Assembly: GCA_019635485.1 (NCBI GenBank) | Contig: JAHBZL010000033.1 | Span: forward strand, 1-58,822 | DNA: 58,822 bases | Direction of reading: 5' to 3' | DNA from: Piscinibacter sp. | GTDB taxonomy: Bacteria; Pseudomonadota; Gammaproteobacteria; Burkholderiales; Burkholderiaceae_C | Shown here: positions 8,676-39,638 of the stretch, piece by piece | Numbering within the stretch: the stretch's first letter is position 1 | Layout of the letters: every line of letters starts with the position of its first letter | Notes under the pieces: generated by a model | Databases searched by the model: none | Seen by the model: only the letters and a program-made list of their open reading frames with translations | What the model was told of the DNA's origin: nothing | Program-made: the position numbers and the translations under genes

Positions 8676-8695
8676 GTCGGGCCGATTGGAACGGC

Positions 8696-8714: not shown

Positions 8715-8735
8715 GACATTCCTCAGCCGCTTCGG

Positions 8736-9557: not shown

Positions 9558-9603
9558 GGGCTTCTGTGTTGCGGAGGGCATGGGGCGTAGCATCGGCCGC
9601 GGG

Positions 9604-10638: not shown

Positions 10639-10658
10639 CGGCGGTCGGCGACGGCGTG

Positions 10659-17600: not shown

Positions 17601-18364
17601 AGCAGCTCGCGCTCGGCGAGCAGCTCGGCGAGCGCCGCGCCGGCGGCCTCGAGGCCGGCGAAGCCGGGGCGCCGGCCGCTGAGCACGAAGATCAGGTCCT
17701 CGACCCGGCCGGTCAGGTCGCCCGGCTGTTCGCCGAGCGTGATCCACAGGATGCCGTCGTCGAATGCGGCCTGCACCGCCTCGTCGTGGCAGGCGGCGCG
17801 CGCCAACGCGGTCTTGCCGTAGCCGCCGGCGCCGCGCAGCGCGGTGACCCGCGCCACCGGCTCGCCGCGGTCACGGTCCACGAGGTGCGGCACCAGGCGC
17901 TCGAGCAGGCCGCGGCGCGGGACGTGGTCGGCCGGCAGGTCTTCGACCATGAAGGGCACGCGGCGCGGCTGCGGCGTGCCGTGCAGGTCGCTGACGAACT
18001 TGGCCCACTCGTGCGCCGGGTCGTAGAAGTGCGCGCTGCGCATCCAGCGCGGCATCGCGGCGAAGTCCAGGTCCGGTGCCGCGATCACCGGGTACACGGT
18101 GACGCCGCGCTGCCGCGCGTAGCGCCACTCGCGCCGCACCAGCTCGGAGGCGAGCGCGGCCGGCGTCATCACCAGCACGAGGAACACCACCTGGTCGAGT
18201 GCCTCGGTGATCTGCAGCCACCAGTCGCGCCCGCCTTCCAGGCCCTCGCGGTCGCGCCACAGCGTCAGGCCCTGCGCGGCGAGCCGCTCGCGCAGCCCGC
18301 GTGCGAAGTCCTCGCCGTCGCGGCGGGCATAGGAGACGAAGACGCGCGGCGCTTCGGCGGCCAT
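14648..18364 (-). CDS. TIR-NB-ARC-WD40 protein (APAF-1-like bacterial NLR)
   Basis: A 1238-residue STAND protein. Residues 5-135 are a TIR domain ([14 protein letters not shown]79 in LVRREWRYA sits at the catalytic position). The NB-ARC NTPase follows: Walker A GAGGYGKT (178-185), Walker B LLIVIDD (254-260), sensor LITTRN (280-285) and an MHD-like LHD (460-462). From about residue 622 to the end there are 14 WD40 repeats, which fit two seven-blade propellers. This order matches a sensor-switch-effector design: ligand binding by the propellers, oligomerisation by NB-ARC, then TIR action, probably NAD breakdown. Similar proteins are known or suspected in phage defence; nothing here shows the trigger. 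It is monocistronic or leads no obvious operon. Confidence 0.93.
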
Positions 18365-26141: not shown

Positions 26142-27025
26142 AGCTCGACCCGGCCGACGTCGAGGGCCGGCGCCGCGTGGCGATCGCGCAGCGCGTGGCC
26201 GACGCGCACCGCGGGCTGGACGACGCCTCGCTGCTCGCCTTCGTCTCGGGATCGACCGTCGACGGGCTGGCCGACGAACGCTCGGACGTCGACATGAGCG
26301 TGGTCTTCGCGGCGCTGCCGCCGGAAGAGGCGCTGCGGGTGGCCTGTCGCCGGGTCGGCGGCGACTGGTTCTGGCAGGCCGGCGACCTCGGCGAAGGGCT
26401 GGTGGTCGCGTTCCATGTCGACGGTATCGAGGTGCAGATCGGCTATGCGAGCGAGGCCGGCCTGGTGCACGACCTCGACGAGGTGCTGGTGCGCCACAAC
26501 CCCGACACGCCGCAGCACAAGCTGGCCGAAGGCGTGCTGAAGGCCGTGCCGCTGGCCGGCGCGGAACGCCTCGCGGCGCTGCAGGCGCGGCTGGCGGACT
26601 TCCCGCCTGCGCTCGGCCGCGCGATGGTGGCGCACGGGCTCGTCGCACCGCTGTCCTGGCGCGGCGCGGCGCAGCTGCTGCACCGCGACGCGGCGCTGTG
26701 GTGCCGCGACGTGCAGGTCGACGCCTGCTACCGCCTGCTGCTCGTGCTGTGCGGCCTGAACCGGCGCTACTTCACGCGCTTCCAGGTCAAGCGGCTGCAC
26801 CGCCTCGCGGCACAGCTGGCGATCGCGCCGCCGGACCTGGCCGGGCGCATCGAGCGCCTGCTCGCGGCGCCGGCCCGCGAGGCCTTCGACGCGCTGCACG
26901 CGCTCGAAGGCGAGGTGATCGAGCGGGTCGCGCTGCACCAGCCGGAGATCGACCTCGGGCCGGTTCGGCAGCGGCGCGCGGCCTACCGGCCGGACGCGGC
27001 CGGCAGCACCGCTCAGGGGCGGTAG
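26138..27025 (+). CDS. Nucleotidyltransferase-domain protein
   Basis: A 295-residue protein. The N-terminal ~110 residues form a Pol-beta-type nucleotidyltransferase: FVSGSTVDGLADERSDVDM holds the GS (G38, S39) and the DxD pair D50 and D52, and IEVQIGYASE follows at the third strand. The rest is helical, like the substrate-binding domains of small NTases that transfer AMP to drugs, proteins or nucleotides. It starts with GTG at 26138 inside the CpXC stop (GTGA). The 3' end overlaps the convergent DUF4242 gene by 13 bp. The substrate is unknown; being in the peptidase operon suggests joint action. Confidence 0.82.
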   Translation: MKLDPADVEGRRRVAIAQRVADAHRGLDDASLLAFVSGSTVDGLADERSDVDMSVVFAALPPEEALRVACRRVGGDWFWQAGDLGEGLVVAFHVDGIEVQIGYASEAGLVHDLDEVLVRHNPDTPQHKLAEGVLKAVPLAGAERLAALQARLADFPPALGRAMVAHGLVAPLSWRGAAQLLHRDAALWCRDVQVDACYRLLLVLCGLNRRYFTRFQVKRLHRLAAQLAIAPPDLAGRIERLLAAPAREAFDALHALEGEVIERVALHQPEIDLGPVRQRRAAYRPDAAGSTAQGR

Positions 27026-27288
27026 AAGTACGGGTCGAGCACCGTCACCTCGGTGATGCGGCTGACCGGCAGGCCGTTGCGCTCGGCCACCTTGCGGATG
27101 GCTTCGGGGCTCGGGCCGTCGTAGACGCAGAAGGTGCCGGTGCGGTCCGGGTTCACGTACGAGTGCACCCAGGTGACGCCGTGTTCGGCGTTGTTCGCGA
27201 CGACACTGGCGACGGCCTTCTTGCCGTCGTCGTTCAGCGGGATCGACAGTCCCTGCGGGAAGTGCCGTTCGATCATGTAGCGGGCCAT
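27013..27288 (-). CDS. DUF4242 protein (SCO4226-like nickel-binding family)
   Basis: A 91-residue protein with the family stretch MIERHFPQGL, followed by VTWVHSYVNPDRTGTFCVYD and SPEAIRKVAERNGLP. SCO4226, the structurally known relative, binds nickel through histidines. The ATG at 27288 has a fair ribosome site (AAGGAA, eight bases upstream). It lies 91 bp downstream of the LuxR-type regulator gene on the same strand; the intervening promoter region has several palindromes. It is probably controlled by that regulator. Confidence 0.87.
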   Translation of the reverse strand: MARYMIERHFPQGLSIPLNDDGKKAVASVVANNAEHGVTWVHSYVNPDRTGTFCVYDGPSPEAIRKVAERNGLPVSRITEVTVLDPYFYRP

Positions 27289-27380
27289 GGTGATTTCCTT
27301 TGAAGGTGCCCGGCAGCGGTCGTGCTGCCGTGTCCCGCACTGTGCCGATCGGCCTCGTGGCCCGCGCCGGCAGGCCTGCC
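27289..27380 (-). promoter_or_regulatory. Promoter region of the DUF4242 gene with palindromes
   Basis: Three symmetrical sites occur before the DUF4242 start: hairpin CGGCAGC-N6-GCTGCCG (27311-27330), the palindrome GCACTGTGC (27337-27345) and GGCAGGCCTGCC (27369-27380), the last overlapping the end of the LuxR gene. GCACTGTGC is also the core of the repeated 39-bp element near the osmC and methyltransferase genes, and lies 48 bases before the ATG here against 50 bases for the methyltransferase gene. Confidence 0.45.
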
Positions 27381-29992
27381 TATCTTGATCCGGCGCGTTG
27401 CCCAGATTGCTCGGTTGGTGCCAGCCAGCCTTCGCGTTCGGCCCGGCGCACCGCTTCCAGCCGGCTCGACACGGCCAGCTTGGCGAGCACCGCGGCGACA
27501 TGGTGGTCCACCGTGCGCACCGAGCGGTGCAGGCGCGCGGCGATGTCCGTGTTGCGCAGGTCCTGCGCGAGCAGCGTCAGGACGCGCATCTCCGCACTCG
27601 TCAGCCCGCAGGGGTGGCTGCGCGTGGTGGCGCGGGCCCCGCGCGGCACGCCGCGCACGCCGGCCTCGCGCAGCCGCCGGCGCAGCGCCTCGGCGGCGGG
27701 CTGCGCGCCGAGCCGGTCGAAGCCGGCGAGCGCCTCCTGCTGGGCCGCGGCATCGCCCTCGGCCAGTGCGCGTGCCTGCTCGTAGGGGCAGCCGAGCCGC
27801 TGCCAGGCGTCGGCCGCGTCGCGCCAGCGCCCGGCGATCTCGAGCGCATACGGCGCCGCACAGTCCGCCGGCGCCTCGTGCAGCGTGCCGGCGCGCCAGC
27901 ACCAGGCCGCGAGCTCGCCGGCGAACCAGGCATGCCGGCGCTGCTGCGCCAGCGCGAGTGCCGCGCGCGCCTCGGCATCGCAGGCCTCCCGGTCGCCACG
28001 CAGCCAGGCCGCCTCAGCGCGCAGCGCGCGCACGGGCGCGATGCGTTGCAGCGTGTCGCTGCTGCCGGCCAGCGCGAGCGCTTCGTCGAGCACCTCGGCG
28101 GCGCCCGGGTCGCCGCGCAGCGTGCGCAGCCGGCCGAGCGCGACCAAGGCCATCAGGCGGCTGATCGACCACGCGCCGGCGCGCTCGACGACGTGGCCGG
28201 CCCGTTCCGCCGCCGCGGCCCAGTGCCCGCCGCGCAGTTCGCACAGGGCCAGCCAGGCGCTGGCGTAGTGCAGGCTGCCGTCCATCTCGTGCTCGGTGCT
28301 GAACGCGATCGCTTCCTGCAGCCAGCGCTGTGCACGCGGGAGCTGCATCAGTTCGCCCAGGGCCGAACCGAGGTTGAGCAGCAGGGAGGCGGTGATCGTG
28401 TGGCGCGACTCGGCGCGTGCGATGCGCAGGACGTCCTCCGCCTCCGCGCAGCCCGCATCGAGATCGATGAACATCCGCGCGATGGCGGCGGTGGCTATCG
28501 ACGTCAGTTCGCGCTCGCGGTCGCCGCAGCGCCGCGCCAGCACGACGGATCGGTCACACCAGTCCCGTGCCGATGCGGGCTCGCGGTCGAGCATGCGCAG
28601 TGCGCCTTCGACGCCGTATGCCGTCGCGAGCTCGGGGCCGGGCGGCAGCGCCTCGAGCAGCTCGATCGCGCGCCGGCTGGCGGCGTCGGCCGGCGCCTTG
28701 CGTGCGGCCAGCACCAGCAGCTGCGCGGTCTGGCTCAGGTTCAGCGCCTGGCGGCGCGCGTCGCCGAGGCGCTGGTACGCGGCATCGAGTTCGCGGCGGG
28801 CTGCCAGCGCGTCGTCCAGGCGCGCCAGCTGGCGGCAGGCGTCCGCATAGGCATCGAGCCAGCCCAGCCGCTGCGCATCGTCCGCGGCGACCGCCCCGAA
28901 GTCGAGCGCGCTCTTCCAGTGGTGCGCGGCCTCGCGGTACGAGCTGCGTTGCAGCGCCTCGGCGGCGGCCGCCGGCGCGAAGCGCTGCACGGCGGCGGCG
29001 TCGCCGGCCTGCACCGCGTGATGCGCCAGGCGCGCCGCCGGAATCGGATTGCCGCTGACCACCAGCACCTCGAGCAGGCGGGCGTGCAGCCCTTGCCGGA
29101 CCGGGGTGTCCAGCGCGTTTTCGATGGCCACGCGGGCGAGTTCGTGGCGGTAGTGCAGCCCGTGGCCCTCGGCCTGCAGCAGGCCCGAGGTCAGGCAGGC
29201 CTCGACGTCGGACGCGGCCGGCGCCAGCAACGCCTCCACCAGCCAGCGTTCGACCCGCGCCGGCACCAGCGCCGCGACGCGCAGAATGGCCTGGGCCGCG
29301 CCGCCGAGACGCGCGTAACGCGCCAGCACCAGGTCCTGCACCGTCTGCGGCACGGCCGCACCGGGCTCGCGCAGCACCTCGGTGACGAAGAAGGGATTGC
29401 CGCGCGTGGCCGCATGCAGGCCCGCGGCAGGCTGCCCCGCCGCCTGCGCCAGCTGCTCGACGGCCTGTGCCGACAGGCGCTGCAGCGGCAGGCGGGTCAG
29501 CGCGGCCGCCGGCAACTCGCCGAACAGCCGCCGCAGGGGGTGCGCCGCCGTCACCTCGTCGTCGCGGAAGCTGATCGCCAGCACGGCATGCGTGCCTTCG
29601 ATGCGGCGGCCGACGAACTTCAGCAGGTCGAGCGTGGCATCGTCGGCCCAGTGCGCGTCCTCGACGACGAACAGCACCGGCACCGGGGCGGCGCGAAGCT
29701 CGTCGATCAGGGCGTCGAAGAGCGCCCCGCGCGGGCCCGCCAGCCGGTTCGCGAAGCGCGGCTGCAGCTCGCGCGCGATGTCCAGCAGCGGGGCCAGCGG
29801 CAGCGGCGTGGCGAGGGCATCGCAGCGGCCCCACCAGACCACGGCATGCCCGTCCGCGGCGGCACGCAGCAGCGTGGTCTTGCCGATGCCGGCCTCGCCG
29901 GCCACCAGCACCACGCGGCCGCGGGTGTGCGCGTCCTGCAGCAGCTGCCGCAGCGTGTGCAGCGCGGGCTCGCGTTCGAGGAGTTCAAGCAT
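27380..29992 (-). CDS. LuxR-family ATPase transcriptional regulator (LAL type)
   Basis: An 870-residue regulator. The N-terminal AAA/STAND ATPase has Walker A GEAGIGKTT (about 30-38) and Walker B VLFVVEDAHW; the middle (about 330-770) is a helical, TPR-like array; the C-terminal ~65 residues are a LuxR helix-turn-helix (LTSAEMRVLTLLAQDLRNTD, then VRTVDHHVAAVLAKL). The start was set at the ATG of MLELLEREPAL because the ATPase begins immediately after it; an ATG at 30031 is possible. These large regulators sense small ligands. It most likely controls the DUF4242 gene downstream. Confidence 0.9.
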   Translation of the reverse strand: MLELLEREPALHTLRQLLQDAHTRGRVVLVAGEAGIGKTTLLRAAADGHAVVWWGRCDALATPLPLAPLLDIARELQPRFANRLAGPRGALFDALIDELRAAPVPVLFVVEDAHWADDATLDLLKFVGRRIEGTHAVLAISFRDDEVTAAHPLRRLFGELPAAALTRLPLQRLSAQAVEQLAQAAGQPAAGLHAATRGNPFFVTEVLREPGAAVPQTVQDLVLARYARLGGAAQAILRVAALVPARVERWLVEALLAPAASDVEACLTSGLLQAEGHGLHYRHELARVAIENALDTPVRQGLHARLLEVLVVSGNPIPAARLAHHAVQAGDAAAVQRFAPAAAAEALQRSSYREAAHHWKSALDFGAVAADDAQRLGWLDAYADACRQLARLDDALAARRELDAAYQRLGDARRQALNLSQTAQLLVLAARKAPADAASRRAIELLEALPPGPELATAYGVEGALRMLDREPASARDWCDRSVVLARRCGDRERELTSIATAAIARMFIDLDAGCAEAEDVLRIARAESRHTITASLLLNLGSALGELMQLPRAQRWLQEAIAFSTEHEMDGSLHYASAWLALCELRGGHWAAAAERAGHVVERAGAWSISRLMALVALGRLRTLRGDPGAAEVLDEALALAGSSDTLQRIAPVRALRAEAAWLRGDREACDAEARAALALAQQRRHAWFAGELAAWCWRAGTLHEAPADCAAPYALEIAGRWRDAADAWQRLGCPYEQARALAEGDAAAQQEALAGFDRLGAQPAAEALRRRLREAGVRGVPRGARATTRSHPCGLTSAEMRVLTLLAQDLRNTDIAARLHRSVRTVDHHVAAVLAKLAVSSRLEAVRRAEREGWLAPTEQSGQRAGSR

Positions 29993-30058
29993 GCGAGCCG
30001 CCGAGTCTAGCGACGGCCACGCGGCCGCCACCCCACGGTTCGCAGTCCGCCGGGCGGC

Positions 30059-31330
30059 TCAGGCCGCGACCGCCGCTGCGCGGGGGCGGGCGAGCTGCTC
30101 GAGGTGCGCCACGACGTGCGCGGCCAGTTCGCGCACGTCGTCCTCCGCCCCGTGGATGAAGCTCGACTTGCGGCGGCGCAGGTAGGGCAGGCCGAGCACG
30201 ACCAGGCCCGGGCGGACCACGCCGCGGTCATGGCGCAGGCTGCCGTCGGCACCGAACACCGGCGCCTGCAGCCAGCCGAGCTCGGGGCGGAATCCCGTGG
30301 CCCAGATCACCGTGCGCACCTCGGTGCCGAGCGCGAGCCCGAGGCGCGGCCTGGGACCCACGTCGGTGGGCGCGAAGCGCTCCGGCGGCGCAGCGACCGC
30401 GTCCAGCCCCAGGCGCAGCGCCCATGCATCGAGCGTCTCGAGCAGCCGGTTCATCTTCAGGTCGGCCAGTGCGCAGACGTTGCGCAGCGAGCCGGAGAAC
30501 TGCGCCTGCCTGTCGCGGATGCCGGCGAGGCGGCCGACCACCTCGACACCGTCGGCGCGCAGCGCGTTCAGGTCCAGTGTCGCGCGCTCGGGCGTGCCGG
30601 CGAGCTGCGGCGACGGCACGCGCCGGGCCCGCTCGGCATCGTCGACGTCCTCGATGCGCTGGTCCAGCACGCCGGCGGCGAGCATCCACCACTGGATGTC
30701 GCGGCCGCGGTAGACCCGCGGCAGGCGCACGTGTTCGCCGGCCGCCAGCGTCACGGGCCGGCCGCTGCGCTGGATCTCCTGCGCCAGCTGCACGCCGGTC
30801 GCGGAGGCGCCGACGATCAGCACGCGCCCGTCGTCGAGCCGGTCGGGGCGGCGGTAGGTGTGCGCCGTCAGTTGCGCGATGCCCGGCGGCAGCAGCGACG
30901 CGACGCGCGGCAGCACCGGCCGGCCGAAGGCGCCGCTGGCCAGCACGACAGCCCGGCACAGCCAGTCGCCGCGGTCGGTCGTGACGCGGTAGAGCTCGCC
31001 CTCCGGTTGCACGGCGGTCACCGTGGTGTGCGTGTGCAGCGGTGCCGCGACCCGCCGCGCATAGGCCGCGATGAAGCCGGCGACCTCGGCGGCGCTCATG
31101 TAGCCGTGCGGATCGTCGCCTTCGTAGTCGCAGCCGGGCAGCCGCGTCATCCAGTTCGGGGTGAGCAGGCGCAGCGAGTCCCAGCGCTGCGTGCGCCAGC
31201 TGTGCGCGGCCTCGCCGCGCTCCAGCACCACGTGGTCGACGCCGTGCCGGCCGAGCACCCGGCTCATCGCCAGGCCGCTGTGGCCGGCGCCAATGACGAC
31301 GACGTCGATCCTGCGTGAGGGGGTGTGCAT
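30059..31330 (-). CDS. FAD/NAD(P)-dependent oxidoreductase (FMO-like)
   Basis: A 423-residue flavoprotein with FAD motif VVVIGAGHSGLAMSRVL near the N-terminus, WDSLRLLTPNWMTRLPG, NADPH motif RVLIVGASATGVQLAQEI and the ATG-type signature VIWATGFRPEL. This layout is of flavin-containing monooxygenases and CzcO-like oxidoreductases. It lies 61 bp after osmC on the same strand, so it is probably in the same transcript and under the osmC promoter with its 39-bp element. The ATG at 31330 was chosen so that the FAD fold starts within ten residues; 31345 is an alternative. Confidence 0.88.
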   Translation of the reverse strand: MHTPSRRIDVVVIGAGHSGLAMSRVLGRHGVDHVVLERGEAAHSWRTQRWDSLRLLTPNWMTRLPGCDYEGDDPHGYMSAAEVAGFIAAYARRVAAPLHTHTTVTAVQPEGELYRVTTDRGDWLCRAVVLASGAFGRPVLPRVASLLPPGIAQLTAHTYRRPDRLDDGRVLIVGASATGVQLAQEIQRSGRPVTLAAGEHVRLPRVYRGRDIQWWMLAAGVLDQRIEDVDDAERARRVPSPQLAGTPERATLDLNALRADGVEVVGRLAGIRDRQAQFSGSLRNVCALADLKMNRLLETLDAWALRLGLDAVAAPPERFAPTDVGPRPRLGLALGTEVRTVIWATGFRPELGWLQAPVFGADGSLRHDRGVVRPGLVVLGLPYLRRRKSSFIHGAEDDVRELAAHVVAHLEQLARPRAAAVAA

Positions 31331-31391: not shown

Positions 31392-31958
31392 TCACGCCTT
31401 CGCGCAGGTGACGGTGACGTCCGTCGGGTTGGTGACGATGTCGAACACCGCCGAACGCTTCTGCGACTGCGCGACCAGCGCGGCGATCTCCGCCGCGGTG
31501 GCATCGGCATCGATCTCGTAGTGCACCTTGACGGCGTCGAAGCCGTTGCGCACGTTCGTGTCGATGCCGAGGATGCCGCGCAGGTCCATCGGTGCTTCCA
31601 GCGTGGCCTTCACCGAGCGGAGCTGGATGTTGCGGCGCTGCGCGACCGCGGCGACGCCGGCCGACAGGCAGCCGGCCAGGCCGACGAGCACCATCTCCAC
31701 CGGCGTGGCGCCATGGTCCTCGGAGGCGAAGATCTCCGGGTGGTCGGTGTCGAAGCGGAACGGCTGGCGATGTTTCTGCTCGCCGCCCAGGCCGTGGAAA
31801 CCTTCGACGCTCGAGCGGGTGTGCGTGCCGCGCTGCCACTCGCTGGTGGCGCGCCACTGGAAGCGGGCCGCCTCGGGCGTGGCCGTGAGCGCCTCGCGGG
31901 CGCCCAGGAGCGCGGTGACGTTGACGCCGTTGTCGACGGTGAGAGTCTGCTGAGTCAT
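31392..31958 (-). CDS. OsmC-family peroxiredoxin-like protein
   Basis: A 188-residue OsmC/Ohr-fold protein. It has the family regions HPEIFASEDHGATPVEMVLVG before the central helix and GLAGCLSAGVAAVAQRR, where the cysteine is one of the pair used for hydroperoxide reduction, and ends in FDIVTNPTDVTVTC with another Cys near the C-terminus. Such proteins detoxify organic hydroperoxides or handle reactive sulfur with low-molecular-weight thiols. The start at 31958 precedes DNG VNVTALL. Its promoter carries the 39-bp element B, shared with the methyltransferase/cysK gene cluster beyond the BTAD regulator. Confidence 0.88.
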   Translation of the reverse strand: MTQQTLTVDNGVNVTALLGAREALTATPEAARFQWRATSEWQRGTHTRSSVEGFHGLGGEQKHRQPFRFDTDHPEIFASEDHGATPVEMVLVGLAGCLSAGVAAVAQRRNIQLRSVKATLEAPMDLRGILGIDTNVRNGFDAVKVHYEIDADATAAEIAALVAQSQKRSAVFDIVTNPTDVTVTCAKA

Positions 31959-32045: not shown

Positions 32046-32084
32046 AGCGCACTGTGCGCAAGCCCGCGTTGCACGCGCGTTCCA
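32046..32084 (-). promoter_or_regulatory. Shared 39-bp promoter element, copy B (upstream of osmC)
   Basis: Read on the minus strand this starts TGGAACGCGCGTGCAACG and ends TGCGCACAGTGCGCT. It matches copy A (35150-35188, plus strand) at 35 of 39 bases, in the same orientation to the downstream gene. It contains two heptamers, TGGAACG and TGCAACG, with starts 11 bp apart, then the inverted repeat GCGCAC-A-GTGCGC. It ends 87 bases before the osmC ATG and lies 30 bases beyond the stop of the BTAD regulator gene. Confidence 0.8.
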
Positions 32085-32113
32085 CGTCCGGCGCCGCGTG
32101 GCGGCGCGGCGGG

Positions 32114-35100
32114 TCAGGCGCCGGCGTCGAGTGCGGCCAGCAGGGGCCCGTGGGCGAGATCGCGCTGCTGGACGATGCCCTGCAGCAGCGCCTCCAGCGT
32201 CAGGCCGGGCCAGGGCGGGTCCACGATCGGCGGCGACGCGCGGCGCGCCCACGCGGCGCGCAGTTCGTCGCGATCGGGCGCGCTCAGCGACGGTTCGTCC
32301 GCGGCGAACGCCAGCACGCGGCGCGCCGCACGGGCGTGGCCCTGCACCTCGAGCAGCTCGGCCCAGGCGAGCAGCACGGCGGGCTTGACCGATTGCGCGC
32401 CGAGTGTCAGCGCCAGTTCGGCGCCGCCGGCCAGCAGCGCGCGCGCCGGCTCGAGCTCGCCGCGCCGGGTGGCCAGCCGCGCGAGCTGCACCTTCAGCCA
32501 GCCGACGAGTGTGCGCAGCCCGCCGGCGAGCGCCACCTCGAGAGCCTGCTCGGCGTGCACGCGGGCCGCCTGCTGGTCGTCCGCCTTGAGCGCCAGCTCC
32601 GTCAGGTTGGCCAGCACGAAGGCGCGGGTGCTGACGAGGCCGTGGCGCTCGCTCAGCTCCAGTGCCTCGCGCAGATGCGCCTGGGCGGCCGCGTCGTCGT
32701 CCATGAAGGTCAGCATCGAACCGAGGTTGTTCAGGCACACCGCCACGCGCGCATGGTCGCCGTGGCGTCGATGCTGGGCGAGCGCCTCGAGCGTGAGGCG
32801 CAGCGCCTCGTCGTAGTGCCCCAGCCGCTTTTCGCACAGCGCGAGGTTGTCGAGCGTCGAGGCCGTGTCGTGGGCGCGCCCGCCGGCCTGCGCCAGCTCC
32901 AGCGCGCGCTGGTAGGCGTAGCGGGCGTCGGCCGGCCGGCCGGTGGCGATCGCGCAGCCGCCCAGCACCGCCAGCGCCTGGAAGCGCGCCTCGCGCGGCG
33001 ACGTCGCCGGGCGTGCGGCCAGCGCGAGCGAGGCGCTGGCCTCGGCCTCGGCGAAACGCGCCAGCCGCATCTCCATCAGGGCGGCCTGGCTCAGCAGCAG
33101 CATGCGCAGCCGCTCGTCGGCCTGGCCGGGCGGCGAATCCACGGCCTGGCGCAGCAGCGCCAGCCCTTCCTCGAAGCGGGCGCGGTGCTCGAAGTAGTTC
33201 AGCAGGGTCGGCGCGCTGTGCTGCAGCGCCTCGGCGCCGCCCGGGGCGCACGAGAACGCCCAGGCGCGCCGGCAGTTCTCGAAGTCGGCGTCGATCGCCT
33301 GCAGGGCTTCGCGCTGCCCGTGTTCCGTCGCGGGCGCGAGCGGCCGCAGCCAGCGATGGAAATACGCCGCGTGGGCCGCCAGCGTCGCATCGCGCGCCGC
33401 GCTCGTGTCGAGCCGCTGCGCGGCCAGCTGCTGCACCAGCGGATGCAGCTGGAGGCGCGCGCCGTCCTTGGCGAGCAGGGACTTGTCGGCCAGCGCGCCC
33501 AGCACCGGCAGCGAGGCGCCGGCCACGGCGCGCGCCGCCTCGATCGAGAAGCCGCCGTGGAAGACCGACAGCCGGGCCAGCGCGTCGCGCTCGACGGGCG
33601 TGAGGTGCCGCCACGAGTGCTCGAACACGGCCTCGATGCTGGCGTGGCGCGGCGGATGGCGGGCATCGGCGGCGCGCAGCAGCTCGGTGCCGCCGCGCAG
33701 TTCGTCGGCGATTGCCTGGCAGGAGAGCATGCGCACCCAGGCGGCCGCGAGCTCGAGCGCCAGCGGCAGGCCTTCGACCAGCCGGCAGATGTCGACGATG
33801 GCCGCCCGCTCGGGCGCCGCGGCGAAGCCGGGCTCGACACGCCGCGCGGCCCGCACGAACAGGCGCACGGCGTCGAAGGACTCGGCGCGGTCGTCGTCCT
33901 CCGGGTCCGGGCAGGGCAGGCCCTCGATCGGCATCGACCACTCGCCCGCCACGGCCAGGCGCAGGCGCGAGGTGACGACGATCTTCAGTCGCGGGCAGGC
34001 CTGCAGCAGCCGGTCCAGCAGCGGCGCGTGCTCGGCCAGCTGCTCGAAGTTGTCGAGCACCAGCAGCAGGGCCCGCTCGCGCCAGGCGTCGATCGCCCGC
34101 GCCAGCGCATCGCCCGGCCCGCGGCCGCTCGCGACATCGGCGGCCCGGGCCAGGCGCTGGCCGAACTGCAGCGGCGTGTCCACGTCCTCCAGGGCGACGA
34201 ACAGCGCGCCGTCGGCGAACGTCGGCCCCAGCTGCTGCAGCACGCGGCGCGCCAGGCGGGTCTTGCCGACGCCGCCGGGGCCGATCAGGCACAGCAGGCG
34301 GCATTCGGCATGCCCGAGCAGGTCGGCGATGCGCTGCAGTTCGATCGAGCGGCCCACGAAGCCGTCGTCGCCCGGGGCGGCGGACGGGGGGGCGTCCGCC
34401 ACGACCGGCGCGGAGCGGGGTGCCACGCTCAGGCTGTCGTGCAGCGCGCGCAGCTCGGTGCCGGGCGACAGCCCGAGGTCCGCCGAGAGCCGTTCGGCGA
34501 ACTGCCGGTAGGCGAGCCGCGCTGCGCCCGCCTGGCCGGCACGGGCGAGGGCGCGCAGGTGGTGCTGCAAGGCCGTCTCGTCCAGCGGATCGGCGTCGAG
34601 CAGCCGGGCCGACAGCGCGACGGCCTCGCCCGCGGCGAGCCCGGCGTCGTCGAGCTGCGCGATCGCCGCGCTGCGCCAGGCGGCGCGCAGGCGTTCGCGC
34701 TCGAAGCCGGCCCAGTGCGTCCAGGCGTCGCTCTGCCCGTCGTCGAAGCCGGCCAGCAGCTCGCCCCGGTACAGCGCCAGCGCCTCGGCCGGACGGGCCT
34801 CGCGCAGCGCCGTCTCGAAGTCCGCCGCATCGGTGGGGAGCAGCAGTCGCAGCGCGGCGCCTTCGGACTCGATGTCCAACGCCCAGGGCAGCGAGGCCAT
34901 CCGGAACAGGGTCTTGCGCAGGTTCGCGAAGGCGAGCCGCGCCGGCTGCTCGGGCCACAGCAGCGCGGCGATCTCGGTGCGCGGCACCCAGTCGCGCCGC
35001 AGCGCCAGCAGCGCGACGAGCTGGGTGCGGCGCTCGAAGGGCAGCGCGGCGGCGGCGCCGCCGCGCACCAGCGCCGGCGGGCCGAACAGGCTCAGGCGCA

Positions 35101-35116
35101 GGTCCGACGCATCCAT
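32114..35116 (-). CDS. BTAD/SARP-type regulator with NB-ARC ATPase and TPR domains
   Basis: A 1000-residue AfsR-like regulator. Residues 5-95 are an OmpR/SARP winged-helix (LRLSLFGPPALVRGG, RTEIAALLWPEQPARLAFAN), 100-245 a bacterial transcriptional-activator domain (ALALYRGELLAGFDD), about 270-560 an ATPase with Walker A GPGGVGKT and Walker B LLLVLDN, and the remainder TPR-like repeats (TASTLDNLALCEKRLGHYDE). SARP domains bind direct repeats spaced by 11 bp, the spacing seen in the element flanking this gene on both sides. It probably controls osmC and the methyltransferase operon, and itself, since copy A also lies in its own upstream region. ATG at 35116 chosen as the first codon before the DNA-binding domain. 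Confidence 0.92.
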   Translation of the reverse strand: MDASDLRLSLFGPPALVRGGAAAALPFERRTQLVALLALRRDWVPRTEIAALLWPEQPARLAFANLRKTLFRMASLPWALDIESEGAALRLLLPTDAADFETALREARPAEALALYRGELLAGFDDGQSDAWTHWAGFERERLRAAWRSAAIAQLDDAGLAAGEAVALSARLLDADPLDETALQHHLRALARAGQAGAARLAYRQFAERLSADLGLSPGTELRALHDSLSVAPRSAPVVADAPPSAAPGDDGFVGRSIELQRIADLLGHAECRLLCLIGPGGVGKTRLARRVLQQLGPTFADGALFVALEDVDTPLQFGQRLARAADVASGRGPGDALARAIDAWRERALLLVLDNFEQLAEHAPLLDRLLQACPRLKIVVTSRLRLAVAGEWSMPIEGLPCPDPEDDDRAESFDAVRLFVRAARRVEPGFAAAPERAAIVDICRLVEGLPLALELAAAWVRMLSCQAIADELRGGTELLRAADARHPPRHASIEAVFEHSWRHLTPVERDALARLSVFHGGFSIEAARAVAGASLPVLGALADKSLLAKDGARLQLHPLVQQLAAQRLDTSAARDATLAAHAAYFHRWLRPLAPATEHGQREALQAIDADFENCRRAWAFSCAPGGAEALQHSAPTLLNYFEHRARFEEGLALLRQAVDSPPGQADERLRMLLLSQAALMEMRLARFAEAEASASLALAARPATSPREARFQALAVLGGCAIATGRPADARYAYQRALELAQAGGRAHDTASTLDNLALCEKRLGHYDEALRLTLEALAQHRRHGDHARVAVCLNNLGSMLTFMDDDAAAQAHLREALELSERHGLVSTRAFVLANLTELALKADDQQAARVHAEQALEVALAGGLRTLVGWLKVQLARLATRRGELEPARALLAGGAELALTLGAQSVKPAVLLAWAELLEVQGHARAARRVLAFAADEPSLSAPDRDELRAAWARRASPPIVDPPWPGLTLEALLQGIVQQRDLAHGPLLAALDAGA

Positions 35117-35149
35117 GGGGGCGCCAGTATGGTGGCAGTCGGCACGGCA

Positions 35150-35188
35150 TGGAACGCCCATGCAACGCGGGCCTGCGCACAGTGCGCC
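35150..35188 (+). promoter_or_regulatory. Shared 39-bp promoter element, copy A (upstream of methyltransferase operon)
   Basis: On the plus strand it starts TGGAACGCCCATGCAACG and ends TGCGCACAGTGCGCC. It lies 47 bases before the methyltransferase ATG and 33 bases upstream of the divergent BTAD gene start. A CATACT hexamer on the minus strand (35131-35126) could be the -10 of the BTAD gene, which would put its -35 on the edge of this element and suggest autoregulation. Confidence 0.8.
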
Positions 35189-35235: not shown

Positions 35236-36081
35236 ATGCCGTTCCCCGCCGACCCGGCCACCGCGCTGAAGCGCCGCCTGGCGGCGGGCTGGGCGGGCGG
35301 CGACTACGCCGTCATCGGGGCCACCCTGCAGGTGGTCGCCGAGAACCTCGTCGAGGCGGTCGACCTGCGCGCGGGCGAACGGGTGCTCGACGTGGCGGCC
35401 GGCACCGGCAACGCCTCGCTCGCGGCCGCGCGCCGGTTCGCCCACGTCACGTCCACCGACCTGCAGAGCCTGCTGCTGGACAAGGGCCGCGAACGTGCCA
35501 GGGCCGAGGCGCTGCCGGTGACCTTCATCGTTGCCGACGCGGAGGAGCTGCCGTTCGCGGACGCGAGCTTCGACGTCGTGCTCTCGACCTTCGGCGCGAT
35601 GTACGCGCCGGACCAGGCGAAGGCGGCGCGCGAACTGCGTCGTGTGCTCAAGCCCGGCGGCCGCATCGGGCTGGCGAACTGGACGCCCGATGGTGTCGCC
35701 GGGCGCCTCCTGCAGACCCTCGCCGCCCATGTGCCGCCGCCGCCCGGCCTGCCGCCGCCGACCCGCTGGGGCGTGCCGGCCGAACTCGCGGCACTGCTCG
35801 ACCTGGACCCGGCTTGCCTGCGCTGCGCGCGGCGCAGCTTCCACTTCCGCTACCGCTCGGCGCTGCACTGGGTGCAGGTGTTCCGCGACTTCCACGGCCC
35901 GACGCGCCGGGCCTTCGCGGCGCTCGACGCGCCCGGCCAGCGCACGCTGGAGCGCGAGCTCGGCGCGCTGCTGGACGCGGCGAACGCCGGGGGCGCCGGC
36001 TCCCTCGTCGTCGCCGCCGACTACCTCGAAGCGGTGATCCGTCCCGATGGCCCCGTGCCCATTTCCTCCCCCGTCCTCTAG
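35236..36081 (+). CDS. Class I SAM-dependent methyltransferase
   Basis: A 281-residue UbiE-like methyltransferase: motif I VLDVAAGTGNASLAAARR, acidic strand-2 end TSTDLQ, motif II VADAEELPFADASFDVVLST and motif III RVLKPGGRIGLANW. The middle C-x2-C in ACLRCARRSF is unusual but not diagnostic. The ATG at 36 bases after the upstream CATCG tract (35236) gives a normal N-terminus. It is the first gene of a run with the cysteine synthase fusion (10 bp on) and the AhpD-like gene, behind the 39-bp element. Thiol or sulfur methylation would fit the neighbours but is not shown. Confidence 0.86.
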   Translation: MPFPADPATALKRRLAAGWAGGDYAVIGATLQVVAENLVEAVDLRAGERVLDVAAGTGNASLAAARRFAHVTSTDLQSLLLDKGRERARAEALPVTFIVADAEELPFADASFDVVLSTFGAMYAPDQAKAARELRRVLKPGGRIGLANWTPDGVAGRLLQTLAAHVPPPPGLPPPTRWGVPAELAALLDLDPACLRCARRSFHFRYRSALHWVQVFRDFHGPTRRAFAALDAPGQRTLERELGALLDAANAGGAGSLVVAADYLEAVIRPDGPVPISSPVL

Positions 36082-36091
36082 AGAAACACCC

Positions 36092-37603
36092 ATGCCACGC
36101 TACGACAACATCCTGCAGACCATCGGCAACACGCCGCTCGTGCGCCTGAACAAGCTCGCGCCCGCGGGCGTGCACGTGCACGTCAAGATCGAATCCTTCA
36201 ACCCGCTCGGGTCGGTCAAGGACCGGATGGCCCGCGCCGTCATCGAGGATGCCGAGCGGCGCGGCACGCTGCGCCCGGGACAGACGGTCATCGAGGCGAC
36301 CAGCGGCAACACCGGCATCGGCCTGGCGATGGTGTGCGCCCAGAAGGGTTACCCGCTGGTGCTGACGATGGCCGAGAGCTTCAGCGTCGAGCGGCGCAAG
36401 CTGCTGCGCTTCCTCGGCGCGCGCGTGGTGCTGACGCCGGCGGCCGAGAAGGGCACCGGGATGCTGAACAAGGCCGTCGAGCTGGCCGAGGCGCACGGCT
36501 GGTTCCTGTGTCGCCAGTTCGACAACGAAGCCAACGCCGAGGTGCACACGCGCACCACCGCGCAGGAGATCCTGGCCGATTTCGACGGCGAGCGCATCCA
36601 CGCCTTCGTCTCCGGTTTCGGCACCGGCGGCACGCTGCTCGGCGTGGCACGCGGGCTGAAGGCAGCCGACCCGGGCATCCGCGTCGTCGCCGCCGAACCC
36701 GACAACTCGCAGCTGCTGGGCAGCGGCATCCCCCAGGTGCGCGACGCCGACGGCATGCCCAGCGCCAGCCACCCGCAGTTCCGCCCGCACCTGATGCAGG
36801 GCTGGAGCCCGGACTTCATCTCGCGCCTGACCGAGGCTGCGACCGCCGAGGGGCTGGTCGACGAGGTCGTGCCGGTGAACGGCAACGAGGCGCTGCGCCT
36901 GGCGCGCGAGCTGGCGACCAAGGAAGGCATCTTCGTCGGCACCTCCAGCGGCGCGACGCTCGCCGCCGCGCTCGAGGTGGCGCGCCGCGCCCCGCCGGGC
37001 AGCCACATCGTCTGCATGCTGCCCGACACCGGCGAGCGTTACCTGTCGACGCCGCTGTTCGAGGCCATCGGCGTCGACATGAACGACGAGGAGCTGGAAC
37101 TGTCGCGCTCGACGCCCGGCTACCGCTTCGACGCGGCCGCACCGGCACCCGCCGCACCCGCGCCGCAGCCGAAGCCGGTGCAGCCGCAACCGGTCGTCGC
37201 GCTGGACGCCGAGGCGCAGGCCTGCGTCGACCAGGTCATCCGGGACGAGCCGGTGGTGATGTTCGCGCTCGAGTGGTGCGAGTTCTGCTGGGCGGTGCGC
37301 AAGCTGCTCGCGCGGCTGGGCGTCGGCTACCGCAGCGTGGACATCGACTCGGTCGCCTTCCAGCAGCACGACCTGGGCACGCGGATCCGCGCCGTGCTGA
37401 AGGCGCGCACCGGTGCGCCCACCATCCCGCAGATCTGGATCGGCGGCGTGCACGTGGGCGGTGCCATGGACCTGTTCGCCGCGCTGCGCGAGGGTCGCCT
37501 GCAGCGGCTGCTGGCGGACGCCGGCGTCGCCTGTCCGCTCGATGCCGACGTCGACCCGACCCAGTTCCTGCCCAAGTGGCTGCATCCGCGCCAGGCCGCC
37601 TGA
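36092..37603 (+). CDS. Cysteine synthase fused to a glutaredoxin domain
   Basis: A 503-residue fusion. Residues 1-320 are a PLP-dependent O-acetylserine sulfhydrylase: TIGNTPLVRLN, PLP lysine in SVKDRM, EATSGNTGIGLA and GFGTGGTL, with CMLPDTGERYLST at the end. A Pro/Ala-rich linker (about 347-370) leads to a glutaredoxin-like domain of about 100 residues with CEFC (in EWCEFCWAVRKLL), cis-Pro TIPQIWI and GGVHVGGAMD. Cysteine synthase plus glutaredoxin in one chain suggests thiolation coupled to disulfide or persulfide reduction. It is 10 bp after the methyltransferase gene and 13 bp before the AhpD-like gene. Which sulfur donor it uses is unknown. Confidence 0.92.
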   Translation: MPRYDNILQTIGNTPLVRLNKLAPAGVHVHVKIESFNPLGSVKDRMARAVIEDAERRGTLRPGQTVIEATSGNTGIGLAMVCAQKGYPLVLTMAESFSVERRKLLRFLGARVVLTPAAEKGTGMLNKAVELAEAHGWFLCRQFDNEANAEVHTRTTAQEILADFDGERIHAFVSGFGTGGTLLGVARGLKAADPGIRVVAAEPDNSQLLGSGIPQVRDADGMPSASHPQFRPHLMQGWSPDFISRLTEAATAEGLVDEVVPVNGNEALRLARELATKEGIFVGTSSGATLAAALEVARRAPPGSHIVCMLPDTGERYLSTPLFEAIGVDMNDEELELSRSTPGYRFDAAAPAPAAPAPQPKPVQPQPVVALDAEAQACVDQVIRDEPVVMFALEWCEFCWAVRKLLARLGVGYRSVDIDSVAFQQHDLGTRIRAVLKARTGAPTIPQIWIGGVHVGGAMDLFAALREGRLQRLLADAGVACPLDADVDPTQFLPKWLHPRQAA

Positions 37604-37616
37604 GGAGACGACGACC

Positions 37617-38270
37617 ATGAGCTTCATCACCACCACGCCGCCCCAGGGCGCGACCGGAACCGTGGCCGCGATGTACCGGCGCCAGCAGGACAACTGGGGC
37701 TTCGTGCCCAACTACGCCAAGGTGTTCTGCCACCGGCCCGAGGTCATGGCGCGCTGGGCGCAGCTGCTGGCCGAGATCAAGCGCCCGATGGACAAGCGCC
37801 GCTTCGAGCTGGTGACCTTCGTCGCCGCCCACGAACTGCGCCACTCCGCCTGCGCGCTGGCTCACGGCAAGGCGCTGCGCCAGTTCTTCAGCGACGCGCA
37901 GATCGTCGCCATCGCCGAGGATCGCCTGGACGGGCTGCTGGAGGCGCCGGAGCGGGCCATGCTCGCCTTCGCGCGCCGCATCGCGCGCGACGCGGCGCAG
38001 GTCTCGTCCGAGGACGTCGCCGCCTTGCAGGCGGCCGGCTTCGGCGATGCGGAGATCTTCGACATCGCCGCGGTGGCGGCCGGCCGCGCCTTCTTCACCA
38101 AGCTGCTCGACGGCCTGGGCGTGGCGCCGGACGCGCCCTTCCTGGCCCTCGACGAGCCGCTGCGCCGCACGCTGACGCTCGGGCGGGCGATCGACACGCA
38201 GGCCCCGGCGACGCTGCGGCCCGGGACGCCCGCGCCCGAAAGCGCCGCGGCCGGTGGCGTCAGCGGCTGA
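37617..38270 (+). CDS. Carboxymuconolactone decarboxylase / AhpD-like protein
   Basis: A 217-residue alpha-helical protein of the AhpD/CMD superfamily (peroxidase-related group), with FVPNYAKVFCHRPEVMARW at the N-terminal helix and FVAAHELRHSACALAHGKAL at the active-site helix. Normal AhpD proteins have E-x2-C-x2-C-x3-H; here the first Cys is replaced by His (HELRHSACALAH), so the disulfide-based peroxidase cycle is unlikely to work in the usual way. ATG at 37617 follows a GAGGAG ribosome site. It ends the operon of methyltransferase, cysteine synthase-glutaredoxin and this gene. Its tail overlaps the acyltransferase gene by 11 bp. Confidence 0.85.
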   Translation: MSFITTTPPQGATGTVAAMYRRQQDNWGFVPNYAKVFCHRPEVMARWAQLLAEIKRPMDKRRFELVTFVAAHELRHSACALAHGKALRQFFSDAQIVAIAEDRLDGLLEAPERAMLAFARRIARDAAQVSSEDVAALQAAGFGDAEIFDIAAVAAGRAFFTKLLDGLGVAPDAPFLALDEPLRRTLTLGRAIDTQAPATLRPGTPAPESAAAGGVSG

Positions 38271-39495
38271 GACCGCGGGCGCCGGAAGGCGCCCGGATGC
38301 CGAACAGGGTGCGCAGCGGCGGGACGTAGCGGAACACGAAGGTGCACAGCGCGACCACGGCCCACGACAGCAGGACGGAGAGTGCCCAGCGCGGCCAGAT
38401 GCCCAGGTCCGACCCGAGCAGCAGGTAGGTGGCGGCCGTGAGGGGGGCGTAGTGCAGCAGGTAGAGCGGGAAGGACAGGTCGCGGGCCAGGCCCAGCATC
38501 GGCCCGCTCGCCAGCAGGTACCGCCGCCCGAGCCCGATCGCGGCCACGACGAGCCACCATGCGGCGAGCCCGCGCAGGAACTGCGCGAGCAGGTGGAAGG
38601 CCTGGTAGCCGGCGCCGACGGGAAGCCACTCGTAGCAGGCCAGGCGCGCGGCGAAGGCGGCGAGGCCGAGCACGAGCGCGGTGAACCCATGGCGCTCGGC
38701 CGCCTCGGGGAGGCGCGGATCCACACCCGCGAGGTACCCGGACACGAAGAAGCTCAGGTAGACCGTGACGTTGGCCCAATCGTCGACGAGGTTCTGGTAG
38801 CCCGGCCACCCGGGGCGGAACGCCGCCTCGAGCAGGGCGATCCACAGTGCGGGCGCCAGCACGCCCGCCGCGTGCACCGTGCCGGTTGTTCCTGTGCCGT
38901 GCGGCACCGGGGGGCCGCGCCGTCGCCAGGCCTGGAACAACGGCAGCGCGGCGACGGAGAACACGAACAGGTAGACCAGGAACCAGAGATGGCCCCAGTC
39001 GAAATGGCCGGGGCTGCCGGGCCCCGTGCTGATGCCGTCGAAGAAGCGGGGATAGAAGGCGAGGAAACCGCCCTCGAAGGTCCGGAAGTCGAGGGCACGC
39101 AGCCAGGCCTGGATCGGGATCACCAGCAGCGTGATCAGCCCGAAGGGCAGCATCAGGCGGCGCGCCCGTTCGCCGATGAAGGCGGCCGCGCCGCGACTTT
39201 GCAGCGAGTGCGCGGCGCCCATGCCCGACACGAGGAACAGCAGGTGCATGCCCCAGTTGTCCAGGAACACGGTGAACAGGCGCAGGGCGTCGGGGCCGAA
39301 GCGGCCGTACAGGCCGCGACCCGCGAGCACGGCATCGCGCACCGGATCGTCGTAGACGTAGACGACGCCGTAGCCGGTGTAGGACAGTGCCGCGTGGAAC
39401 GGCGCCAGCGAGAGCACGACGATGAAGCGCAGCCAGTCCAGGTAGGCGAGCCGCTGCGCGCCCGGCGGGGCGCCGCCCGGGGGCAACACGCGCAT
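38260..39495 (-). CDS. Acyltransferase 3 family membrane protein
   Basis: A 411-residue inner-membrane protein with about ten to eleven helices. The first helix region AYLDWLRFIVVLSLAPFHAAL has the R/H pair of the acyltransferase_3 family, and DWGHLWFLVYLFVF, SFPLYLLHYAPLTAATYLL and VSGYLAGVDPRL are typical. Members transfer acyl groups to sugars, glycans or other exported compounds; OpgC-like succinylation of glucans is one known case. The ATG at 39495 was selected; the open frame extends further. A stable hairpin sits just upstream in its leader. No polysaccharide genes are close, so the acceptor is unknown. Confidence 0.87.
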   Translation of the reverse strand: MRVLPPGGAPPGAQRLAYLDWLRFIVVLSLAPFHAALSYTGYGVVYVYDDPVRDAVLAGRGLYGRFGPDALRLFTVFLDNWGMHLLFLVSGMGAAHSLQSRGAAAFIGERARRLMLPFGLITLLVIPIQAWLRALDFRTFEGGFLAFYPRFFDGISTGPGSPGHFDWGHLWFLVYLFVFSVAALPLFQAWRRRGPPVPHGTGTTGTVHAAGVLAPALWIALLEAAFRPGWPGYQNLVDDWANVTVYLSFFVSGYLAGVDPRLPEAAERHGFTALVLGLAAFAARLACYEWLPVGAGYQAFHLLAQFLRGLAAWWLVVAAIGLGRRYLLASGPMLGLARDLSFPLYLLHYAPLTAATYLLLGSDLGIWPRWALSVLLSWAVVALCTFVFRYVPPLRTLFGIRAPSGARGLSR

Positions 39496-39504
39496 CGAGA
39501 ATCT

Positions 39505-39540
39505 CCGCCGAGCGTGGGACCGGCCACCCGGGCTCGGCGG
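39505..39540 (-). promoter_or_regulatory. Long hairpin in the acyltransferase leader
   Basis: CCGCCGAGC (39505-39513) pairs with GCTCGGCGG (39532-39540), with an inner GTGG/CCAC pair (39514-39517, 39524-39527). It lies 10-45 bp upstream of the acyltransferase ATG on the transcribed strand. It could be an mRNA stem that limits initiation, or an operator; no T-run follows. Confidence 0.5.
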
Positions 39541-39638
39541 CGGGTGACCGTCGCGCAGGTTAGGCGCGCGAGCCCGGCGGGCGTTGCGCCCGATCAAGCC
39601 GCGTGAAGTGCGCCGCCCGAGGCTGCCCTCACACCTTG

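Follow-up and report, generated by a model that had tools for sequence, protein, structure and literature searches.

We found a gene for a large ATPase-type regulator in a 58,822-nucleotide stretch of Burkholderiales DNA (the window), flanked by two copies of a promoter element that very probably belongs to it. The layout resembles that of AfsR, an antibiotic regulator of Streptomyces, and regulator and element stay together in many related bacteria. Sequence comparison makes it highly likely that this regulator, here termed REG, is a Gram-negative activator of the AfsR/SARP type, and that the 38-bp element is a promoter activated by REG. AfsR/SARP activators are described from actinomycetes in the available parts of PMC10972967, PMC5930380 and PMC10936776. 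Among the literature matches listed, as starts of abstracts, no paper dealt with SARP binding sites in Proteobacteria, which is not proof of absence. A Gram-negative regulator clade with a promoter element readable by comparison would allow a direct test of whether the activation geometry of AfsR is general across phyla.

Two inverted copies of the element flank REG in the window (Table 1), each in the same orientation to the gene that it precedes, namely osmC on the minus strand and the methyltransferase/cysK-grx/AhpD-like genes on the plus strand. The copies are identical at 35 of 38 positions; an earlier note on this DNA had given 35 of 39, which is obtained when one mismatched base is added. 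Other observations of that note were confirmed: the start-to-start distance of the heptamers TGGAACG and TGCAACG is 11 bp in either copy, the gene between the copies encodes BTAD, AAA and TPR domains in keeping with the SARP/BTAD regulator that it proposed, and a flavin oxidoreductase lies downstream of osmC. A search of the assembly containing the window (81 contigs, 5.0 Mb in total, 84% complete) with ≤3 mismatches allowed matched these two places only, and the reversed-pattern control gave 0 matches.

Table 1. Positions of the element copies, REG and the flanking genes in the window
Feature	Position	Strand	Details
Element copy 1, osmC promoter	32047..32084	-	direct repeat 1 32084-32074; direct repeat 2 32073-32063
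-10-like hexamer of copy 1	32056-32051	-	CACAGT, after a 6-bp gap
Element copy 2, methyltransferase operon promoter	35150..35187	+	direct repeat 1 35150-35160; direct repeat 2 35161-35171
-10-like hexamer of copy 2	35178-35183	+	CACAGT, after a 6-bp gap
REG, 1000-aa AfsR/SARP-type regulator	32114..35116	-	wHTH + BTAD (Pfam BTAD 98-228); AAA / STAND NTPase (about 253-478); TPR (about 714-936)
OsmC-like protein	31392..31958	-	first gene after copy 1
Flavin-dependent oxidoreductase	30059..31330	-	related to TIGR04046 (MSMEG_0569 family) and ArsO, under both curated cutoffs
LuxR-type large ATPase regulator	27380..30031	-	AAA_16 + GerE; next after flavin oxidoreductase
SCO4226-like small protein	27013..27288	-	PF14026; last of osmC run
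Methyltransferase, UbiE/Methyltransf_11-type	35236..36081	+	first gene after copy 2
Cysteine synthase-glutaredoxin fusion	36092..37603	+	
AhpD-like peroxidase-related protein	37617..38270	+	TIGR01926-like, below cutoff; resembles PDB 6k40 and 2oyo

The ATG at 35116 fits the ortholog alignment as the start of REG; a longer open frame, to 35233, also exists. The BTAD domain scored 62.3 bits against a Pfam cutoff of 22.1, AAA_22, AAA_16 and TPR_12 were above their Pfam cutoffs, and NB-ARC was just under (20.4 of 23.5); a separate Pfam wHTH match in REG was not found. The six best PDB matches of a model of the N-terminal part (pLDDT 86.4), over about 250 residues, were AfsR (8k60, 8hvr) and EmbR (2ff4, 2fez), with E values of 2e-10 to 3e-9. 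AfsR was the best of these, with 26% identity in the structural alignment, and the next PDB match after AfsR and EmbR had an E value of 0.019. EmbR of Mycobacterium tuberculosis, whose targets differ from those of REG, has the wHTH-BTAD fold in common with it. By sequence, AfsR aligned with REG over 4-576 (E 2e-10). REG combines the OmpR-type wHTH followed by BTAD that marks AfsR-type SARPs with the STAND/NB-ARC-type NTPase and TPR that follow BTAD in large SARPs. On the AfsR equivalog model NF053617 it reached 66.1 bits against a curated cutoff of 1430, and is therefore AfsR-like, not an AfsR ortholog.

The same anatomy was seen at 23 sites in 17 of 17 ortholog loci: two 11-bp direct repeats carrying heptamers, 6 bp, and a -10-like hexamer, mostly CACAGT. 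The repeat consensus is NGGAACGC + 3 bp, then NG[GC]AACG + 4 bp. Invariant in 23/23 sites were G2, G3, A5, C6, G7, G13, A16, C17, G18, A30 and T34. Part of the agreement among later sites follows from their having been chosen with a weight matrix; A30 and T34 were already 9/9 in the first nine. Single repeat bases deviate in L126, L127 and L128, and the L127 element is divergent (19.5 bits). A start codon lies ≤70 nt past the hexamer at 21 of the 23 sites, the exceptions being the window osmC (92 nt) and L127 (130 nt), and a purine-rich stretch often stands ahead of it. The element lies far beyond chance, because in leave-one-locus-out weight-matrix scans the nine true sites of seven loci ranked top with 27.9-46.0 bits and the next best position reached ≤9.3 bits. 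The arrangement on both sides of the regulator, stressed by the earlier note, holds in 4 of the 17 loci (window, L055, L121, L128) and is not general; the L130 locus ends inside REG.

Element and regulator travel together. The 17 loci comprise the window and 16 orthologs at 48-66% identity; ten of them were found after the motif had been fixed (49-66%), and all ten carry the element, at 19.5-50.3 bits. None of 16 homologs at 31-42% identity, scored alongside the new orthologs, had a match >9 bits. The one exception among 17 scored distant homologs, outside those 16, was a 41% paralog with variant repeats in the window's own genome (L023/L034; 22.9 and 18.5 bits), and distant homologs beyond those scored by matrix were covered by a plain consensus scan. 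In a family sample of 399 genomes, the element with ≤1 mismatch was present in 12/12 genomes with a REG ortholog and 0/387 others (one-sided p = 3.5e-23, or 1.7e-18 when the three of the 12 that had served to make the pattern are left out); both p values assume independent genomes, an assumption that does not hold. The ortholog survey scored ≤2 candidates per genome, and 360 genomes without listed rows were assumed to be the same as those of the element scan. The 12/12 agreement is limited to the tight pattern, because the site in G057 has three mismatches to the search pattern. An element adjoining REG is inherited with REG. The earlier note had named wide occurrence of the element without the regulator as evidence against its proposal; matches fell in exactly the 12 of 399 genomes with REG orthologs, and the proposal was not refuted. 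The co-occurrence supports its idea that a SARP/BTAD regulator has a heptamer-repeat promoter element of its own ahead of both flanking operons, and the link of element to REG is strongly supported by these comparisons; stronger support than the p values comes from conservation of the element against diverged flanks, together with unlinked sites.

AfsR of Streptomyces coelicolor and REG have the domain order wHTH-BTAD, NOD/STAND and TPR in common (excerpts of PMC10936776; PDB 8k60, 8jke, 8hvr). As given there, the AfsR box at afsS is a pair of 11-bp repeats spanning -40 to -19, and the -10 is CACTGT. In both systems an 11-bp repeat pair directly precedes a weak -10 (CACTGT for AfsR, CACAGT for REG); the match in spacing assumes that the hexamer lies at -12 to -7. 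The two differ in host (Burkholderiales for REG), in repeats (GGAACGC for REG, CGTT(T/C)ATCG for AfsR) and in targets, the REG element preceding enzyme operons beside the regulator whereas AfsR acts on afsS (same excerpts), and the likeness does not extend to kinase or phosphorylation evidence. The SARP-LAL regulator PimR likewise has direct repeats of heptamers separated by 4 bp (11-bp units), a SARP domain on a large regulator and a target adjoining the regulator gene, for PimR in related clusters (excerpts of PMC5930380). Its main operator, unlike the REG element, has three CGGCAAG-type repeats without -35 overlap, and PimR serves polyene biosynthesis in Streptomyces with a C-terminal half of another type (same excerpts). 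EmbR carries an FHA domain where REG has STAND/TPR (excerpts of PMC10936776).

By analogy with AfsR at afsS, two wHTH-BTAD protomers of REG would sit next to each other on the pair of 11-bp direct repeats, which would stand in for a -35 box (about -40 to -19 from the predicted start site) just upstream of the weak -10 CACAGT, and REG would recruit RNA polymerase. The STAND NTPase and TPR part presumably keeps the activator inactive until a ligand or an ATP state lifts the block. Lying inside its own target region, REG would drive outward operons, in the window OsmC, flavin oxidoreductase, LuxR-ATPase and SCO4226-like protein on one side and methyltransferase, CysK-Grx and AhpD-like protein on the other.

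Alternatively, the element could be an ECF-sigma promoter, or could serve as operator for a different regulator (for example the LuxR-ATPase within the osmC run), with REG a mere neighbour; co-occurrence would also arise from linkage alone. GGAAC resembles the -35 of RpoE-like ECF promoters, in which about 15-17 bp separate it from the -10; in the element, however, the distance to the hexamer would be 22 bp from a GGAAC at positions 2-6 and 11 bp from one at 13-17, and the ECF-sigma reading was rejected on spacing. Both versions leave the 11-bp repetition unexplained and are at odds with the tracking of REG across the 399 genomes, and the LuxR gene could be identified in two of the 17 loci (window and L055; the automatic rule had labelled that of the window unknown), so that we consider this explanation improbable. 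Even less credit is due to the GCGCAC-A-GTGCGC inverted repeat as an additional operator, bound by a dimeric redox repressor: the repeat reported by the earlier note is indeed perfect in both window copies, but in only these 2 of the 23 sites, it overlaps the -10 region, and its conserved bases, A30 and T34, have the pattern of a -10 hexamer. The palindrome was rejected as an operator, and activation by REG through the direct repeats is preferred.

What the regulon is for is less clear-cut. The gene content of the window suggests a response to sulfur, peroxide or electrophile stress, and the signal to REG is probably peroxide, electrophile or small-molecule stress. The thiol/redox regulon of the earlier note fits the window, but four of the 17 loci have thiol/peroxide genes (window, L055, L121 with CysK only, L126), L055 being counted by hand since its minus-strand element, where the methyltransferase frame is interrupted, drew no gene automatically. 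Methyltransferase (12 of 17), hydrolase (9), diiron (8), DUF1127 and haloperoxidase-like genes are commoner; haloperoxidase-like and/or DUF3455 genes, lumped by the automatic rule behind these counts and recounted from rows, occur in 10. Six of eight DUF1127 calls pass the Pfam cutoff of 23.3 (L057, L058, L122, L124, L126, L129), and L055 (17.9) and L130 (19.6) are under it. Genes were called with a simple codon-bias caller, which miscalled the REG start in L124. Small-molecule biosynthesis targets are usual for SARPs, and a biosynthesis or modification pathway to which thiol/peroxide genes are accessory has somewhat less than an even chance. The preponderance of methyltransferase, hydrolase, AurF-like diiron and haloperoxidase-like/DUF3455 genes favours such a pathway, as do the haloperoxidase-like proteins themselves, with K-x6-RP and PS[GA]H motifs in 9/9 checked (strict third motif in 4/9) and one match to a PDB vanadium haloperoxidase (E 2e-25). 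DUF1127 and OsmC/AhpD/Grx genes suggest stress instead, and no PKS or NRPS domain was found among the operon genes scanned with Pfam, which are part of the genes in the runs. The window flavin oxidoreductase is a relative only of TIGR04046 (323.8 bits against a cutoff of 498.35), and its order with the LuxR-ATPase is kept in L055 and L051. The idea that CysK-Grx homologs are selenoproteins was dropped because the TGA in L046 and L047 ends the open frame and L048 and L049 have CysK without Grx; OsmC_like_Se matches were below cutoff.

Three perfect sites unlinked to REG, in two genomes, precede gene families of the linked operons, namely DUF3455 (L093), DUF1127 (L094; 23.5 bits against 23.3) and haloperoxidase-like (L152), and on this basis the 38-bp motif may predict regulon members. 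The motif would offer a first handle on DUF1127, DUF3455, OsmC-like and CysK-Grx genes under a common switch. Some unlinked sites may be chance or serve other regulators, because four of the seven examined (≤1 mismatch) precede genes without a tie to the linked operons (L140, L145, L151, L156). A further site, in L096 (20.4 bits), lies ahead of an unannotated gene.

In a same-genus genome (L051), the orthologs of the OsmC and CysK-Grx operons lie beside a different regulator, SARP-like by its N-terminal sequence and AAA domain and without a Pfam BTAD match, and both promoters carry TCCACG/C triple repeats instead, spaced 12 and 11 to 12 bp. These triple repeats occur nowhere else in the 0.83 Mb of loci examined, for a motif chosen after L051 had been seen. 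L051 looks like a naturally occurring swap: the operons correspond, and their regulator and operators are both different. A generic 11-bp scan did not support flanking repeats as a universal rule for BTAD-STAND regulators: it gave nothing convincing beside L034 7320, L035, L036, L038 12241 and L051, missed L034 17204 and L095 by its own rules, and had a per-flank shuffle frequency of up to 0.08 for true sites (L055), whereas the value of 0.000 given for flanks without a match carries no meaning. No simple recognition-helix code relating regulator to repeat was seen. We tentatively propose that betaproteobacterial AfsR-type cassettes, each a regulator with its own promoter and differing repeats, have been swapped onto the same operons, and that the window cassette may control previously undescribed haloperoxidase/diiron/methyltransferase and thiol-peroxide chemistry. 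Beside other BTAD-type or SARP-like regulators, the repeats were CGAAACG, CGTAACG, CCAAACG and TCCACG.

The two copies of the promoter element stand as an inverted pair around REG, the large BTAD-type regulator of the window, and share 35 of 38 bases (35 of 39 when the extra base of the earlier note is counted). As that note described, both contain the heptamers TGGAACG and TGCAACG, whose starts are 11 bp apart. Copy 1 is followed, in order, by genes for an OsmC-like protein, a flavin oxidoreductase, a LuxR-type ATPase, and an SCO4226-like protein, and copy 2 by genes for a UbiE-type methyltransferase, a cysteine synthase-glutaredoxin (CysK-Grx) fusion, and an AhpD-like protein, beside which an acyltransferase-3 membrane protein and a tyrosinase-domain protein are encoded. 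In REG, AAA_22, AAA_16, and TPR_12 all scored above their Pfam cutoffs, as did BTAD. A structure model of residues 1-255, for which the window protein and five orthologs served as input, had a mean pLDDT of 86.4; a PDB search with this model gave six matches below E 0.001 (2e-10 to 3e-9), all AfsR (8k60 twice, 8hvr once) or EmbR (2ff4 twice, 2fez once), and the seventh match had E 0.019. A second large gene of the window (1238 aa) locally resembles REG, though weakly (33% over 124 aa).

Coordinates of the features in the window and in the compared loci
Feature	Location	Positions	Strand	Remark
Element copy 1	window	32047-32084	minus	
REG	window	32114-35116	minus	1000 aa; Pfam BTAD 62.3 bits (cutoff 22.1)
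Element copy 2	window	35150-35187	plus	
Acyltransferase-3 gene	window	38260-39597	minus	
Tyrosinase-domain gene	window	39639-40874	minus	
Second large gene	window	14648-18364		
Methyltransferase gene	L055	9043-9900		
Triple repeats	L051 (G005:C41)	8927-8970; 12520-12560		TCCACG/C
Repeat elements	L034 (G000:C9:58000-77900)	13942; 17204	minus; plus	CGAAACG; AGCAACG/CGGAACG
Repeat element	L095 (G064:C35)	9950		CGTAACG
Regulator gene	L038 (G001)	8345-11320		CCAAACG repeat just after it
Element-like site	L096 (G064:C110)	9959		20.4 bits

A search of genome contigs yielded five REG orthologs at 48-61% identity, in Rhizobacter sp. Root404 (L055), Aquabacterium terrae (L056), a betaproteobacterial MAG (L057), and two Rubrivivax MAGs (L058, L059), and a sixth (G057, locus L033; 52%) came from elsewhere in the order. 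The element adjoins REG in all six. Across nine sites its information content was 1.40 bits per column, compared with 0.51 in each 45-bp flank. When weight matrices were built with the locus under test left out each time, the true site ranked first in 7/7 loci (27.9-46.0 bits; next best position at most 9.3 bits), and the two sites of the window and of L055 took ranks 1 and 2. The methyltransferase gene after the element in L055 appears frame-interrupted in this record.

With the matrix fixed, the element was found near REG in all ten ortholog loci scored afterwards (L098, L101-L108, and L115; 49-66% identity), and none of 16 distant homologs at 31-42% identity, twelve from the family search and four from an earlier homolog search, had a score above 9 bits. 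The window genome's own paralog (41%, read as L034), scored separately, has two sites with variant repeats (22.9 and 18.5 bits), so that 1 of 17 distant homologs has element-like sites once it is added. REG homologs at E 1e-110 or less occur in 19 of 399 genomes from the family to which the window belongs. Wide occurrence of the element without the regulator would have counted against the reading of the earlier note; at one mismatch or fewer, the pattern was confined to 12 of the 399, exactly those with a REG ortholog of about 49% or more. With kinship ignored, this co-occurrence has p = 3.5e-23, or p = 1.7e-18 without the three of these 12 genomes (the window's, L055's, and L056's) that had fed the pattern. 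Matches with exactly two mismatches added seven family genomes, a number equaled by the reversed control (7 genomes, 8 places). In an order sample of 399 genomes, searched with the pattern alone, two had it at one mismatch or fewer, both adjoining REG; this threshold misses G057, whose site has three mismatches. No third place within three mismatches was found in the window's own assembly, where the reversed control also gave 0; as this assembly is 84% complete, further places could be missing from it. The central idea of the earlier note, that the flanking operons carry a promoter element belonging to the BTAD regulator, is well supported at the level of sequence, and extends to a conserved clade.

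Over the 23 sites of 17 loci (the window and 16 REG ortholog loci), G2, G3, A5, C6, G7, G13, A16, C17, G18, A30, and T34 are invariant, and C8 (21/23) and A4, A15, and C36 (22/23 each) nearly so, an agreement that is partly built in because later sites were chosen with the matrix; A30 and T34 were already 9/9 in the first nine sites. These two occupy the second and sixth places in a hexamer at positions 29-34, most often CACAGT; in -10 elements, the bases at those places are the most conserved. A start codon follows the hexamer within 70 nt at 21/23 sites (distances are 52 and 92 nt in the window and 130 nt in L127). The inverted repeat GCGCAC-A-GTGCGC of the earlier note is perfect in both window copies but is not general, being perfect in 2/23 sites.

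With the hexamer placed at -12 to -7, the element repeats would span -40 to -19, the same range as the AfsR box at afsS, where the -10 is CACTGT, according to PMC10936776. That paper also describes AfsR on this box as a side-by-side dimer offering sigma region 4 another docking place, and ATP as relieving the inhibition that its NOD and TPR parts exert. REG would work likewise, as a side-by-side dimer on the repeats providing alternative docking for sigma region 4, and ATP would relieve inhibition by its NOD and TPR parts. The REG system is, judging by sequence, a variant of the AfsR/SARP activator, with REG a predicted activator; in the literature consulted on this family, such activators are described for actinomycetes, outside which the REG clade lies.

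Genes in the predicted regulon were counted over the 17 loci by an automatic rule, and L055 was added by hand for methyltransferase, CysK, and AhpD (one more each). The rule gave methyltransferase in 12 loci, haloperoxidase-like and/or DUF3455 proteins in 10, alpha/beta hydrolase in 9, an AurF-like diiron protein in 8, and DUF1127 in 8 (6 above the Pfam cutoff). OsmC and flavin oxidoreductase were found in 3, CysK in 3, and AhpD in 2; the name "thiol/redox regulon" fits the genes of the window but not the loci in general. The diiron label derives from a weak AurF match of one member (19.1 bits; cutoff 29.6) and motifs seen by eye, and no PDB match was found. K-x6-RP and PS[GA]H motifs occur in 9/9 haloperoxidase-like proteins checked, one of which matches a vanadium haloperoxidase in the PDB (2e-25). 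Some runs close with RTX-repeat, TonB receptor, decarboxylase, MFS, or glycosyltransferase genes, which may already be outside the operon. Seven unlinked element sites in four genomes were examined: perfect sites precede genes for DUF3455 (L093) and DUF1127 (L094) proteins in G064 and, by 32 nt, a haloperoxidase-like gene in G596 (L152; 63% identical to that of L033), and four (L140, L145, L151, L156) precede genes without a tie to the linked operons. In L096, an element-like site precedes an unannotated gene, after which come genes for Tll0287/HAMP and Ser/Thr kinase proteins.

CysK-Grx at 63% or more occurs in five of the 399 family genomes; in three it lies in a run adjoining REG elements, and the fourth, G005, of the same genus as the window, has one copy in the module L051. 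This module has the two-sided layout of the window around a different regulator of 979 aa, with AAA_16, an N-terminus of SARP-like type, and no match to Pfam BTAD, and the proteins of the module are 79% (OsmC), 65% (flavin oxidoreductase), 66% (LuxR-ATPase), 76% (CysK-Grx), and 64% (AhpD) identical to those of the window, with a 2OG-Fe(II) oxygenase in place of the methyltransferase. The matrix found no site above 8.5 bits in L051; triple TCCACG/C repeats lie at both promoters, with CACAGT again after the repeat at the osmC promoter. The triple, a motif chosen after seeing the L051 pair, was found nowhere else on either strand of 0.83 Mb of collected loci. Compared with the window, L051 is a predicted natural swap, in which orthologous operons have another SARP-like regulator and other repeats.

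Own repeats are not a universal rule, as an 11-bp repeat scan showed none beside several other BTAD-type regulators. In L034, a REG paralog of the window's genome (about 40-41%) is flanked on both sides by other repeats, which precede an InlB-repeat protein gene on one side and, on the other, a small ORF with an RCC1-repeat protein gene after it. The repeat element of L095 begins right where another BTAD-ATPase gene ends. That of L038 is an 8/8 perfect direct repeat, CCAAACGC, with an 11-bp period, and the hexamer TAGATT stands at the same distance.
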